A stretch of DNA of 44,175 bases from Promethearchaeota archaeon. GTDB taxonomy: Archaea > Asgardarchaeota > Lokiarchaeia > Sigyniarchaeales > SOKP01. This document shows, one piece after another, positions 8,563 through 43,477 of the stretch. The notes below the pieces were generated by a model. That model did no database searches and was not told the origin of the DNA. It saw only the letters and a list, made by a program, of their open reading frames with translations. The DNA lies in the NCBI GenBank assembly GCA_030667705.1, contig DAOUVJ010000005.1, positions 1-44,175 on the forward strand, in the 5' to 3' direction. The position numbers were made by a program, and so were the translations under genes. Positions within the stretch are counted from its first letter, which is position 1; each line of letters opens with the position of its first letter.

Positions 8563-9240
8563 ATGACAAACGTAAATAAAATTCTTGTTAGTTTTGATTT
8601 AGATTATACCTTAATATATAATAGTCAAGGTATTGTAAATTCATTCAATTACGCTCTAAATAAATACAATTTACCTCCGAAAAAGCCAAATGAAATTGAG
8701 AAAATGATTGGAGAACCTTTAGATCACATGTTCTCAGAGTTTTCTAGCATGGATCCAACAATTTTATCCTCAGCTTTTCGAGAGTTTTATAGTAGAAAAG
8801 GAATTTTTCAATCTCAACTAATACCCGGTGTCCAAAATATTCTTAAGATGTTAAAGAAACACAAATTCCAATTAGGAGTGATTACTTCTAAAAAGCAAGA
8901 AATAGCAGAGCAAATTATTCGATATTTAAAAATTAGAGACTATTTTGAGTATGTAATAGGAGAGACTCCTGAAAGAAAAACTTTAGGGAAGCTTGATCCA
9001 TCATTAAAAGCAATAATATCTAACAAATTTCCCGAGCATCAAGTCATTGTAGTTGGTGATCATCCAAAAGATGCAAAACTCTCCAATAATTTAGAGTGCT
9101 TTTTTATTGGTGTTTTAACTGGTCATTACGGTAAAGAAGAGCTCAAGAAGGAAAAGCCTAACAATTCTATAATAGTCAGTAGTGTTAATGAAATATCATT
9201 TGATCTTATTGAAAATCTCCTAAAAAACAAAGTAACTTAA
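8563..9240 (+). CDS. HAD-family hydrolase (phosphoglycolate phosphatase-like)
   Basis: A phosphoaspartate hydrolase of the haloacid dehalogenase superfamily. Motif I is F-D-L-D-Y-T (D12 nucleophile, D14 acid/base). An alpha-helical cap follows (about residues 24-85). Motif II is the threonine in GVITSKK, with the nearby lysine, and motif IV is VVGDHPKDAK. The 225-residue length and cap type match Gph/PGP-like enzymes, which remove phosphate from small metabolites such as 2-phosphoglycolate; the actual substrate cannot be read from the sequence. It is probably cotranscribed with the preceding solenoid gene. Confidence 0.85.
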   Translation: MTNVNKILVSFDLDYTLIYNSQGIVNSFNYALNKYNLPPKKPNEIEKMIGEPLDHMFSEFSSMDPTILSSAFREFYSRKGIFQSQLIPGVQNILKMLKKHKFQLGVITSKKQEIAEQIIRYLKIRDYFEYVIGETPERKTLGKLDPSLKAIISNKFPEHQVIVVGDHPKDAKLSNNLECFFIGVLTGHYGKEELKKEKPNNSIIVSSVNEISFDLIENLLKNKVT

Positions 9241-39082: not shown

Positions 39083-39335
39083 TTTCAAGGGAATACATAA
39101 ATTTAAAAGTTACACTCATGCAATTTGCAATTTGATGCACAAAAAATTATTTTTTTTCACCAAAGAGAAGCTGAGTCCAAGTTCTTTGCCCGTTAAACTG
39201 CTAAAAGACAGAGTGATGTCACAAAAAAATAATCTTTAAATACTAGTTAATAATAATTTATAAACATATAATTTATAAATAAAAAGATAAGCAAAAAAGA
39301 CATCGGTTTTAGGCTTCAGAGGATTTTGGGATTAT

Positions 39336-39566
39336 ATGTTAGTGTTAGCTATCGCCGATTTCAAGCGGTCGGGAGATGTAACAGGGTTGATGAAAAAATT
39401 GAAAATTAAATTTTATGAAGTAAAAAATTTTCTCAGGATTTTGTTTTACAGGATCATCGATCACAATGCAGATCAATTTGCTTTTTTGTTTATAAATATC
39501 GATAATATTATGTTTACACATTTCAAGAACTCAAATAATAGCGACTTGAAAAAAAAAAGGTATTAG
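39336..39566 (+). CDS. possible 76-residue ORF, doubtful
   Basis: The beginning (MLVLAIADFKRSGDVTGLMKKL) looks coding-like and faintly like the first strand of a metallophosphoesterase, but the second half overlaps the promoter box and leader of the next gene and reads as non-coding. It may be a decayed fragment. Confidence 0.22.
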   Translation: MLVLAIADFKRSGDVTGLMKKLKIKFYEVKNFLRILFYRIIDHNADQFAFLFINIDNIMFTHFKNSNNSDLKKKRY

Positions 39567-39586
39567 AGAATGAGAAGAATGAAAAA
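39486..39586 (+). repeat. 100-nt promoter/leader block, copy 1
   Basis: Matches 41578-41677 almost without gaps. The first 18 nt (TTGTTTATAAATA, then CGAT) agree in 17 positions and the last 44 nt in all but two, including a run of exactly ten A. The middle is less alike. It contains the TATA box, the presumed transcript start and a small leader frame. Confidence 0.75.
39489..39498 (+). promoter_or_regulatory. TATA box of the first anchored-protein gene
   Basis: TTTATAAATA, the same as at 41581-41590. A transcript would start near 39520, giving a leader of about 100 nt, long for this genome. Confidence 0.6.
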
Positions 39587-39623
39587 GAATGGATTTGAAT
39601 TAAATGAGAGGGTTGAGAGATGA
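39570..39623 (+). CDS. leader ORF (17 codons) overlapping the next start
   Basis: The frame begins MRRMKK and ends at a TGA that overlaps the main ATG as ATGA. The second paralog has the same arrangement (16 codons, start MRRMKN). Only the first half is alike between the two; the second half differs, but both keep the ATGA junction. Possible translational coupling or an attenuating leader peptide. Confidence 0.4.
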   Translation: MRRMKKNGFELNERVER

Positions 39624-41464
39624 ACAAAGCTAAAAAAATGTTAAGTAATCGCTTAGCAATAAAAACGACAAATAAAAAAATATTGCTAATATTGCTGGTG
39701 TTTAGTGTGCTTCTTGGCAATTCTCTTCTTGTAATGGGGGCTCCTGCTCCAAAATCTTCCACGCCACCGACTTATGGGTGGCAAGAAACTACCTATAATT
39801 ATAATCTCTTTCGAGAATGGACAGGAGAACCTGTTACTACAAATTATGATGGCTCCTACACTGATCATTTTACCAAATATTTTGGGTATTTAAACGATTC
39901 CACGGATACTTACATCCAAGAAACACGGACAATTGACTATAATGCTAATTATTCCATGTTTTCTAATGTGACCTATCTTGGAAATATCACAATAGATATG
40001 GAATTGGATGTATTTCTTGTAAATTTAGATTATGAGGATGCTGTACAGCTTTATTGGGTTGCTTTAAAACAAGGTACATTAGACATGGAATGGTTCAACC
40101 GATATTATGAAGAAGATTTTGAATATTATGAAGAATTCTCTCAAGACGTGAGTTCGGAATTCGTTGAGTATAATAAAACTACTTGGGAAGTGTTGAATAC
40201 TTGGACTCGTGAATATGATAAGATAGGAGAAATTAACATGTCGAGGGATGAGGATCCTGATGATGTCTTGATTCATTATACCTATGACATGGAATTTTCC
40301 ATGCCCCTAATTTTAACGATGCAATTGTTCACGACAAAAAATAAAGATAGAATTGCGTGGGCTGAACTTTTTTATGATTTTATCATATTCAAGGATAGAG
40401 ATCACGATGGGATTTATTCTGCTGGAGAAAAATCTCAAGGCACTGTAGATAAATTCCAACTTCAAATAAGTGATGAGTATTGTGGAGGTATCCAACCAAT
40501 AGCATGGAATACTAGATTTGATTACGAGAGGATTGATTTTAGTGGTCAGATTGGCGATTTGCAGAATACTCTATATTATACAACCCCCAATACTACTGCT
40601 GTTAGCACGATTGCGGACGGGATAACTTTTACTTCCCCTTCAATGGATAGCAACGGAATCGTGTCTTGGGAAATACTATATCCTGATTTCCCAACAATCG
40701 CAAGAATTTGGGATAAAGAGAAACCCATGGAGGAATGGTATAGTAATAATTATAATTCGAGTCTAAGCGACCTATCCCCGACTGATTATAGATATGCTTT
40801 TGATTATAATGCTTCGGAGGAGAGTGCTAATCTGGATTATACTTTTGAAATATCTAAAATAACTGATCCAGAGTTTTATAGCGCTGCTCAAGGATATGGG
40901 TTAAGCTTACCACATTACAGTTATTTCCTTTCTTCTTTCGATATCAATGAAATCGATCAAAACGATTTAACCGTTCCTTGTGATATGTTTAGTTTTGAAT
41001 CCAACGGAACTACAGTAGCGGAATTTAATCTGATTAATCCTCAAAAGAAGAATTATACTCTCTATGATTTCCCAGATGTTGGAATAAATACTGAATTGGA
41101 ATCATTTGGAGGGAGCATTCATAGATTGCTCATGGAACGAGAGGAAGCGAATTCAAACGCGGGTAACCCTTTTATTAATCTGATTTACTCAATTGAAGAC
41201 ATAGTGCAAGCTGATCCCACATTTACTGTTGTAGAGGACATGTATCGGGTTGAAACTGTAAACTATCCCCTTTGGAATGGAGAGCGCTTACTTCACGATC
41301 CTACGCTTACAATTTATTATGATCCTCAAACTACGCCCAATGAACCTCCTGGTGAGCCACCGGCTATTCCCGGTTATAATATTTATTCCATCCTATGTGT
41401 ATTGGCAATAGGAAGCTTAATTATATTAGCTAAAAATAAATTCAAGGGAGCAATCCCGTCCTAA
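39620..41464 (+). CDS. secreted, C-terminally anchored surface protein with EF-hand-like loop (paralog A)
   Basis: A signal sequence covers about residues 17-41 (basic start, helix KKILLILLVFSVLLGNSLLVMG, then APAPKS). The long outer part (about 42-585) is beta-rich and Asn/Asp/Tyr rich, with many N-x-S/T sites, as in archaeal surface-layer glycoproteins. DRDHDGIYSAGE (near residue 260) fits a 12-residue EF-hand-type calcium loop with Asp at 1, 3, 5, Gly at 6 and Glu at 12. The end is a short motif AIPGYN, a hydrophobic helix and a basic tail (KNKFKG), like archaeal C-terminal sorting tails. The partner at 41708 is a clear paralog (shared LDMEFSMPLIL, FPHYxYFLSS, LIHDPTLTIY-type words). Function unknown. 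Confidence 0.85.
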   Translation: MNKAKKMLSNRLAIKTTNKKILLILLVFSVLLGNSLLVMGAPAPKSSTPPTYGWQETTYNYNLFREWTGEPVTTNYDGSYTDHFTKYFGYLNDSTDTYIQETRTIDYNANYSMFSNVTYLGNITIDMELDVFLVNLDYEDAVQLYWVALKQGTLDMEWFNRYYEEDFEYYEEFSQDVSSEFVEYNKTTWEVLNTWTREYDKIGEINMSRDEDPDDVLIHYTYDMEFSMPLILTMQLFTTKNKDRIAWAELFYDFIIFKDRDHDGIYSAGEKSQGTVDKFQLQISDEYCGGIQPIAWNTRFDYERIDFSGQIGDLQNTLYYTTPNTTAVSTIADGITFTSPSMDSNGIVSWEILYPDFPTIARIWDKEKPMEEWYSNNYNSSLSDLSPTDYRYAFDYNASEESANLDYTFEISKITDPEFYSAAQGYGLSLPHYSYFLSSFDINEIDQNDLTVPCDMFSFESNGTTVAEFNLINPQKKNYTLYDFPDVGINTELESFGGSIHRLLMEREEANSNAGNPFINLIYSIEDIVQADPTFTVVEDMYRVETVNYPLWNGERLLHDPTLTIYYDPQTTPNEPPGEPPAIPGYNIYSILCVLAIGSLIILAKNKFKGAIPS

Positions 41465-41577
41465 ATTATTTTTTTTTATTTATATGTAAATAAATACCCA
41501 AAAAGAAACGATAGAAACATGAATAAGAGAGAGGATAAAATGAAAGAAAATAACGTTAAGATGATTTCTGTATTGGA
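41465..41577. other. spacer between the two paralogs
   Basis: T-rich 3' end of the first gene (41467-41484), then about 90 nt without a supported gene; a 15-codon frame with a GAGAGAGGAT site (41540-41587) runs into the promoter box and is probably chance. Confidence 0.4.
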
Positions 41578-41677
41578 TTGTTTATAAATAACGATTTTAT
41601 AAGGTTACAAGTTTCCAAATATCAAGATATAACGACCTGAAAAAAAAAAGGTATGAGAGAATGAGAAGAATGAAAAA
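41578..41677 (+). repeat. 100-nt promoter/leader block, copy 2
   Basis: Partner of 39486-39586; see that entry. The two blocks are the same length to within one nt. Confidence 0.75.
41581..41590 (+). promoter_or_regulatory. TATA box of the second anchored-protein gene
   Basis: TTTATAAATA, about 127 nt before the ATG at 41708; the transcript would start near 41612. Confidence 0.6.
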
Positions 41678-41711
41678 TTACAAATATTGGATAGGGAGAG
41701 TTAAGAAATGA
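41661..41711 (+). CDS. leader ORF (16 codons) overlapping the next start
   Basis: Starts MRRMKN and ends IGRVKK; its TGA overlaps the main ATG as ATGA. A GGGAG site within it lies 10 nt before the main start. See the copy at 39570. Confidence 0.4.
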   Translation: MRRMKNYKYWIGRVKK

Positions 41712-43477
41712 AAAAACCTAAAATGATGATAATGTTAGTATTTTTGTTAATACCGATTATTTCTCCAGCTATTTCTTTAGTAGCAGCTCAAGAGACCGTG
41801 GATCCAAAAGATATTAACTATAGCTGGGAGTTGGAAACCTTCTCCGCACATATTGGTAAGGTCTGGGATAATGAACTATTTCTAATGAATGAAAGTGGCG
41901 CATATATCGATTCGTTTAATCATTCTCGGGGGTATGCAATTAGCGACACCGAATGGATTGAGGAAGAATCAGTATTTAATTACAACGTGAATTATAGTTA
42001 TTTTTCAAGCCTATACTTGCTCGGAGATTATTCGTTAGATGTGAATTTAGACGTGTATAAAGTGGATATATCCTATGGGAATTCAGTAGATTTCACTTGG
42101 GTTGCTTTAAAAAACGGCACTTTGGGTGCTGAATATAACATCTACAATATAAACCACGATTTCAAGCATGAAAATTCATTTCATAAAACGATTGATACCA
42201 CTTATAAAAAGTATAATTCTACCACGATGGAATTATTGGATACGTGGAACGATACGATTGAAGATATTGGGAGTTGGACGTCTGAAGACGGACCTCAATC
42301 AGAATATACCGTTCATCAGACGTTGGATATGGAATTTTCCATGCCATTAATCTTGACATTCCAAGTATATGAAGCCCAAAATGCAGAAAAAATAGCCTGG
42401 GCCGATATGATTTCGGATTTTTATATATTTGAAGATGTAGACAAGAATGGAATATATTCCGTTGGTGAGACAAGCATGGAACAAGAGATGTTTCGAATGA
42501 CCACCAGCGATGAATTGCGGGGTACTTTTATGCCTTGGGCGTTTGATTATACGGTCCATACAGACTATTGGTCTCCTGAAACTTCTATCAACGATACACA
42601 TAACTTTAAATTTCCAGAAGATAGAGAAGTAAATGATTTTAGCAAGAATATTGAATTCACTCCTCCCACACTCGTAAATAACGAGATCGAATTTGACATC
42701 CTTTATCCTGATTACCCTATTTATGGGTATGTTCAGAGAGGGGAAGATTGGTTCATTTCTGGTCCTAATTATACGGATTCGTCTCCTGGTAATTTTTCAT
42801 ATGGGTATAATTATGAAATAACAAACGAAACCGCCAACCTCGACCTTACAGCAGGCTTGCCAAGACTTAGCGACATCGATTTTTTTAATACGGTTGAGAA
42901 TTTTAGCTTGGCGTTTCCACATTATACCTATTTTCTATCATCAGCAAGTATCGAAGAATCCGAGAACTTTGTATTGACCATTCCCGCTGATACATTTCAA
43001 TTCGATGTAGATGGCATGGCAGTCGCAGAAATGACCATGGAAGATGAGAAAAAACATTATTCTCTCATGGATTATCCCGATATTGGAAATAATATGACAT
43101 TTGAAGCGATCGGGTCAACCGTGAGTGATTTAGTGACCAATGAGTTAGAAACCAATCCTACTACGCCAAGAAATTGGTTTGTTGACACAATTTTTACTCT
43201 TAATGAACTTGACTTGGTGAAGCTTGACCCGCAGCTTAATGACGCATTTTCCTTGTATACCATCGAAATGCAGAATTATCCCACTTGGAGCGGATATCAA
43301 CTCATTCATGATCCCACTTTAACCATTTATCATGGGGATACTAATTCTCCACAACAGCAAAATCCCGATGCAATTGCAGGATATGACTTGTTTATTTTCT
43401 CGGGATTGGTCGGTATCATTACAATCATATTGCTTAAAAAGAAAAATATTAAAAAATCCAACCAACTTCATCTTTAA
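41708..43477 (+). CDS. secreted, C-terminally anchored surface protein with EF-hand-like loop (paralog B)
   Basis: Signal sequence at residues about 1-28 (MKKPKMMIML then hydrophobic, then AAQE). The outer domain shares its order with paralog A: FNYNVNYSYFSS, LDVNLDVYKV, FTWVALKNGTLG, LDMEFSMPLIL, the calcium-loop-like DVDKNGIYSVGE (Asp 1, Asp 3, Asn 5, Gly 6, Glu 12), AFPHYTYFLSS and LIHDPTLTIYH. The tail is AIAGYD, a helix and a basic end (KKKNIKKSNQ). Conservation of the loop in both copies supports metal binding. The C-terminal end resembles archaeal sorting domains, but no sortase-like gene is in the window. Role unknown: adhesion, sheath or S-layer are options. Confidence 0.85.
   Translation: MKKPKMMIMLVFLLIPIISPAISLVAAQETVDPKDINYSWELETFSAHIGKVWDNELFLMNESGAYIDSFNHSRGYAISDTEWIEEESVFNYNVNYSYFSSLYLLGDYSLDVNLDVYKVDISYGNSVDFTWVALKNGTLGAEYNIYNINHDFKHENSFHKTIDTTYKKYNSTTMELLDTWNDTIEDIGSWTSEDGPQSEYTVHQTLDMEFSMPLILTFQVYEAQNAEKIAWADMISDFYIFEDVDKNGIYSVGETSMEQEMFRMTTSDELRGTFMPWAFDYTVHTDYWSPETSINDTHNFKFPEDREVNDFSKNIEFTPPTLVNNEIEFDILYPDYPIYGYVQRGEDWFISGPNYTDSSPGNFSYGYNYEITNETANLDLTAGLPRLSDIDFFNTVENFSLAFPHYTYFLSSASIEESENFVLTIPADTFQFDVDGMAVAEMTMEDEKKHYSLMDYPDIGNNMTFEAIGSTVSDLVTNELETNPTTPRNWFVDTIFTLNELDLVKLDPQLNDAFSLYTIEMQNYPTWSGYQLIHDPTLTIYHGDTNSPQQQNPDAIAGYDLFIFSGLVGIITIILLKKKNIKKSNQLHL

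Follow-up and report, generated by a model that had tools for sequence, protein, structure and literature searches.

A promoter and leader shared by two distant tandem paralogs of a Lokiarchaeal genome: probable renewal by copying and a conserved core at a putative upstream ORF

Two tandem genes in the window (the whole stretch of 44,175 nucleotides that was analysed) share a promoter and leader, although their proteins have diverged widely. This leader was probably renewed by copying, and its conserved core is probably a translation-initiation or coupling region. We consider the explanation as a whole, in which the leader was copied late and then drifted around a core that serves translation initiation or coupling, to be rather likely. 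Both regulatory-region transfer and gene conversion are known kinds of event, to which this case adds an example in an unusual arrangement. The window is contig C47 of a 3.1-Mb MAG (228 contigs, 92.5% complete, 5.4% contamination), and its relevant features are listed in Table 1. By eye, both proteins have signal-peptide-like N-termini and anchor-like C-terminal tails. Their scores with Loki-CTERM (NF033507), 17.1 bits for gene 1 and 17.4 bits for gene 2, are below the curated cut-off of 19.9. Pfam gave nothing for either gene, and 'Loki-CTERM' as a term was not found in a literature search. Structure prediction for gene 2 with five other rows reached a mean pLDDT of 52, so this model was too poor for a fold search.

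Table 1. Positions in the window of the two leaders, their upstream ORFs and the genes that follow.
Feature	Position	Strand	Basis or remark
TATA-type promoter part, copy 1 (TTGTTTATAAATAnCGAT)	39486..39503	+	17/18 identical to copy 2
Copy 1, drifted middle stretch	39504..39543	+	25/40 identical to copy 2
Leader core, copy 1, containing the A10 run, an SD-like AGGT and the opening 17 nt of the small ORF	39544..39586	+	41/43 identical to copy 2
17-codon upstream ORF, TGA stop overlapping gene 1 ATG	39570..39623	+	sequence
Gene 1, 614 aa	39620..41464	+	ORF; clade with G004, G008
TATA-type promoter part, copy 2	41578..41595	+	alignment with copy 1
Copy 2, drifted middle stretch	41596..41634	+	alignment with copy 1
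Leader core, copy 2	41635..41677	+	alignment with copy 1
16-codon upstream ORF, TGA stop overlapping gene 2 ATG	41661..41711	+	sequence
Gene 2 (589 aa), distantly paralogous to gene 1	41708..43477	+	ORF; clade with G010, G022, G012

The match between the two leaders is strong and uneven. In a gapped alignment the TATA part, the middle and the core showed the identities given in Table 1, and the post-core stretch (39587-39619) was identical at 18/33 positions. Identity rose again at the start of the coding sequence, where 20 of the first 25 nt agree, and was near background on either side of the block, with 21/46 on the upstream side and 39/76 deeper in the gene. The sequence-only reading had counted 17/18 matches at the TATA end and 42/44 at the leader end with an exact A10 run, and the gapped alignment bore out all three: 39543-39586 is identical between the copies at 42/44 positions, and the A10 run is the same in both. 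Its 100-nt upstream block is indeed shared, but it extends over roughly 150 nt, is unevenly conserved and continues past the start codon for about 8 codons of the gene. The local alignment score of the leader pair was 113, as compared to a mean of 24 and a maximum of 41 in 200 shuffles (z 23.6). Among 16,471 pairs of upstream regions from its own genome, the pair ranked first with a score of 127, the next being 54; these pairs came from the upstream regions of 182 genes (mechanical ORFs of at least 100 aa) in 421,567 bases, window included, and the background stretches were contigs known from earlier matches rather than random ones. The same sample held 72 paralog pairs, and the other 71 leader pairs scored 39 or less. 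Within the gene family, the two window leaders scored 113 and the next of the 120 pairs 48, among 16 leaders that comprised the 13 of an earlier comparison, that of G048b and the two in the window. Since the block is A-rich, a chance or low-complexity likeness might be imagined, but the pair ranking and the shuffles refute it and leave it a practically negligible probability.

The proteins give a different picture. BLASTP aligned the products of genes 1 and 2 with 203/585 identical residues (35%), and at the fourfold third positions of shared amino acids only 18/69 agree. This is the chance level, so the fourfold sites of the pair are saturated. Thus, on proper alignment the proteins are not as similar as the leaders, in agreement with the earlier observation that the proteins are widely diverged and the leaders are not.

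In the family tree (20 rows, with the partial G008 sequence kept and the partial G009 sequence left out), gene 1 grouped with G004 and G008 (support 99/97) and gene 2 with G010, G022 and G012 (100/100). The AU test rejected gene 1 and gene 2 as sisters with P = 2.2e-59. Genes 1 and 2 are therefore not sister duplicates; they belong to separate clades, each with orthologs elsewhere in the genus, and judging from the tree these clades split before the genomes of the genus parted. Gene-1-like copies were found in G004, G008 and G009, and gene-2-like copies in G010, G012 and G022 (58 and 65 genomes, own included). None of these six genomes, several of which are fragmented or cut, had both gene types together, except for a weak, stop-ridden 26% match in G004 (L019).

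The shared block was absent from all five orthologs with readable upstream DNA, namely G004 and G008 for gene 1 (G009 is cut off) and G010, G022 and G012 for gene 2. More broadly, the window leaders were compared with 13 family upstream regions, five of them from orthologs, and all 26 comparisons gave z of 1.8 or less. This set was formed without G048b, G072, G081, G069, G078 (no start by rule) and the truncated G009; the TTG start of G010 and the GTG start of G022 were chosen by rule, and a stretch of contig C43 described below was compared alongside and is not among the 13. Upstream region and gene tree are thus incongruent: the tree splits the window pair, whereas the leaders match only each other.

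Leaders in this family decay fast. Only one of 10 pairs tested, G010-G022, keeps a trace of similarity (z 4.7; proteins 73% identical). The tandem sister pair G048a/G048b of a second genome (L010 and L016, contig C146) has unlike leaders with a score of 26, at 323/576 identical amino acids (56%). With such a turnover, the absence of the block from the orthologs reflects decay in part. The upstream DNA of the orthologs is unrelated to that of the window genes, but the locus itself is not the same: in the six stretches compared, no neighbour protein of the window was found beside an ortholog. Matches to three ABC-type proteins of the window, and one short match, are located elsewhere on the G012 contig.

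The separate clades and the ortholog leaders that lack the block suggest that promoter, leader and start came to be shared after the proteins had split, as if copied between neighbours in this lineage. The same two lines of evidence favour renewal over a leader as old as the gene duplication, held by strong selection in this genome and lost in the others. The latter reading would account for a core that is far better kept than its surroundings, as expected under selection, but it requires that both ortholog clades, as well as the other family members compared, lost the leader; moreover, the drifted middle can still be aligned though the fourfold sites of the two genes are saturated. We regard so old a leader as quite improbable. 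The Jukes-Cantor distance of the leader middle was 0.52, compared to 0.95 for the fourfold sites of gene 2 and its G010 ortholog. The lesser divergence of the middle fits copying after that divergence, although with 40 middle sites such a date is rough, and horizontal transfer of gene 1 or gene 2 would alter it. We infer that, in this Lokiarchaeal lineage, one tandem paralog may have received from the other a copy of about 150-165 nt that spans promoter, 5' leader and start codon region, through ectopic gene conversion or duplication of a small segment. By the time of this copying the proteins would long have been separate, and gene 2 would probably have parted from its nearest ortholog. Afterwards the stretch would have drifted, with the TATA region, core and start spared.

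When tandem paralogs undergo gene conversion, a short tract is left far more similar than the remainder of the two genes. The tract in the window likewise stands out by its similarity from the remainder of genes 1 and 2; unlike in such conversions, it consists of promoter and leader and not of the coding body, and because its middle has decayed, no clean conversion tract can be delimited. The case also resembles horizontal regulatory transfer, or switched intergenic regions as described in the available part of the Piggy paper (PMC5890482), in that the upstream region and the gene behind it have conflicting histories, as if the former had been replaced by recombination. It differs from the intergenic switching presented there in that two paralogs of one genome are involved, the shared region enters the gene start, and the putative event is read from sequence.

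The unevenness of the match is informative about function. Identity differed between core and middle with a Fisher P = 2.5e-4, or 0.0018 without the A10 run; this contrast, over 43 and 40 sites, was picked after the alignment had been seen. The core may have been held by selection, or it may have been copied again later. In the latter case, an older copying of the whole stretch would have been followed by a recent short conversion of the core under no special constraint. Two copyings would explain the uneven identity without selection, and the long exact runs in the core could seed recombination; they also demand two events, and the parts of high identity are those that function predicts, i.e. 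the TATA region, the beginning of the gene and, between them, the SD-like motif together with the small-ORF start. For this distribution of the best-kept parts we favour function and hold a second copying to be unlikely. The sequence-only reading had offered selection or gene conversion as alternatives. Renewal is favoured by the tree and the ortholog leaders, constraint on the core by the contrast with the middle, and both may apply in turn.

Within the core, small ORFs of 17 and 16 codons start at 39570 and 41661, respectively, behind AAAAAGGTAT. In both copies the TGA stop of the small ORF overlaps the ATG of the gene (ATGA). The first 17 nt of the two ORFs are identical and the remainder has diverged with a net length difference of 3 nt, the frame and the overlap being kept. 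A conserved ORF start, a diverged remainder and a kept overlap make initiating and ending at these places a likelier function than the peptide. We suggest that the A-rich tract, the SD-like AGGT and the start of the small ORF form a translation-initiation region, and that ribosomes finishing the putative small ORF would re-initiate on the gene via the ATGA overlap. An upstream ORF touching the start codon was found in 14 of 217 sampled genes, the window pair included, and an upstream ORF of this kind in none of the 13 other family leaders examined. As touching ORFs are not rare and the two copies count as one event, statistical support for coupling is weak. SD-like 4-mers precede 85 of 332 starts as compared to 48 of 332 places inside genes, and with so modest an enrichment the reading of AGGT as an SD motif is uncertain. 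Taken together, these data lend modest support to the core being a translation-initiation or coupling leader.

According to the available text of two studies, reinitiation in Haloferax volcanii and E. coli requires short overlaps (PMC10666635), no other spacing in bacteria and archaea is nearly as common as NTGA, and ribosomes could be handed to the next gene by a short upstream ORF (both PMC12548453). The ATGA overlap in the window and the co-direction of the upstream ORF with the gene are similar to termination-reinitiation coupling as treated in the available parts of PMC6728339, PMC10666635 and PMC12548453. Compared with the coupling presented in those parts, the ORF here is 16-17 codons long, the tail of its peptide is unconserved, and the arrangement is known from sequence alone.

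A structured leader RNA or riboswitch was also considered. Leader RNA structure, one of the earlier proposals, found no backing: the two leaders folded no better than their shuffles (z 0.02 and -0.78), and Rfam gave no match up to E 1 for 39300-41800. The structured RNA is thus unsupported.

We searched for further copies of the block. In its own genome, the 28-nt core pattern with up to 3 mismatches occurs twice, before the two paralogs only; the BLAST-type search of this fragmented MAG covered the best 40 of 72 candidates. At the same threshold the pattern was absent from 226 other genomes of the phylum, and a viral collection contained no exact match to it. For the TATA part, the only zero-mismatch sites in the own genome are these two, and four more sites at 2 mismatches are as many as the reversed control gave. 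The extended promoter motif ATATCGATAATATTAT.TTTACA had 25 sites in 24 genomes of the genus (the window's own included) vs. 18 for the reversed pattern. When 65 family genomes (own included) were searched with the two leaders in turn, matches at E ≤ 0.001 among the best 13 candidates each were found in at least 8 and at least 13 other genomes. Of 22 places with such weak matches, 14 were read: 10 lie in ORFs, one spans a gene junction and three are upstream of other genes. The nine core-type places read comprise eight inside an ORF and the one across a gene junction; the five TATA-type places comprise two inside an ORF and three upstream of unrelated genes (L112, L115, L116). At these three places (L112 1501-1533, L115/L116 1495-1525) the DNA closely matches the part of leader 1 that comprises the TATA and the sequence downstream of it (TATCGATAATATTAT, overlapping palindromes).

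These searches bear on the idea, raised from the sequence, that the block is an operator or leader common to several coregulated surface genes. A TATA region and core common to two genes of one family would agree with such a regulon, as would the few TATA-type matches before other genes in relatives (L112, L115, L116). The genome search called for at the outset turned up two copies here and none within 3 mismatches in the 226 other phylum genomes, and the count of the extended promoter motif in the genus is close to that of its control. A regulon is accordingly very improbable, although further copies in the missing parts of the MAG would revive it.

That a leader is common to two paralogs need not mean that it is anciently conserved, and here the tree and the ortholog leaders suggest a later renewal. 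The contrast of drifted and frozen parts then suggests which piece is likely to be functional, namely a candidate coupled leader ORF. In this group of archaea, translation signals are hard to test directly. More generally, Asgard archaea might swap promoter-leader cassettes between distant surface paralogs, with the core as a coupled leader ORF setting translation; we put this forward tentatively and on balance doubt it. If true, expression modules would spread apart from coding sequence.

A second contig of the genome carries a related end. At about 9030-9192 on the minus strand, C43 carries the final 46 codons of a gene nearly identical to gene 1 (160/163 nt), with different DNA behind them (L020/L068). 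This end is either a further copy or a strain variant, and is perhaps a sign of recent rearrangement at the locus. The 200 nt after it aligned to leader 2 with a score of 37, which was reached by one of 200 shuffles and exceeds that of any of 180 other upstream and 296 downstream regions. With leader 1 the score was 28, which is unremarkable (reached by 5 of 180 upstream and 8 of 296 downstream regions), and global alignment pairs the stretch instead with about 41485-41560. It is a candidate for a decayed third leader.

Between gene 1 and the second TATA region, the window contains a 22-codon ORF (41519-41587) whose end falls within that TATA region. An internal ATG of this ORF, at 41540, is preceded by AGAGAGGATAAA, an RBS-like stretch, and the ORF is perhaps a relic of an older start of gene 2. 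Giant ORFs lie directly downstream of a family gene on the same strand in G004 (L088 5510-15208, 3232 aa) and in G012 (L091 1525-7332, 1935 aa). The gene family may belong to a large surface assembly.
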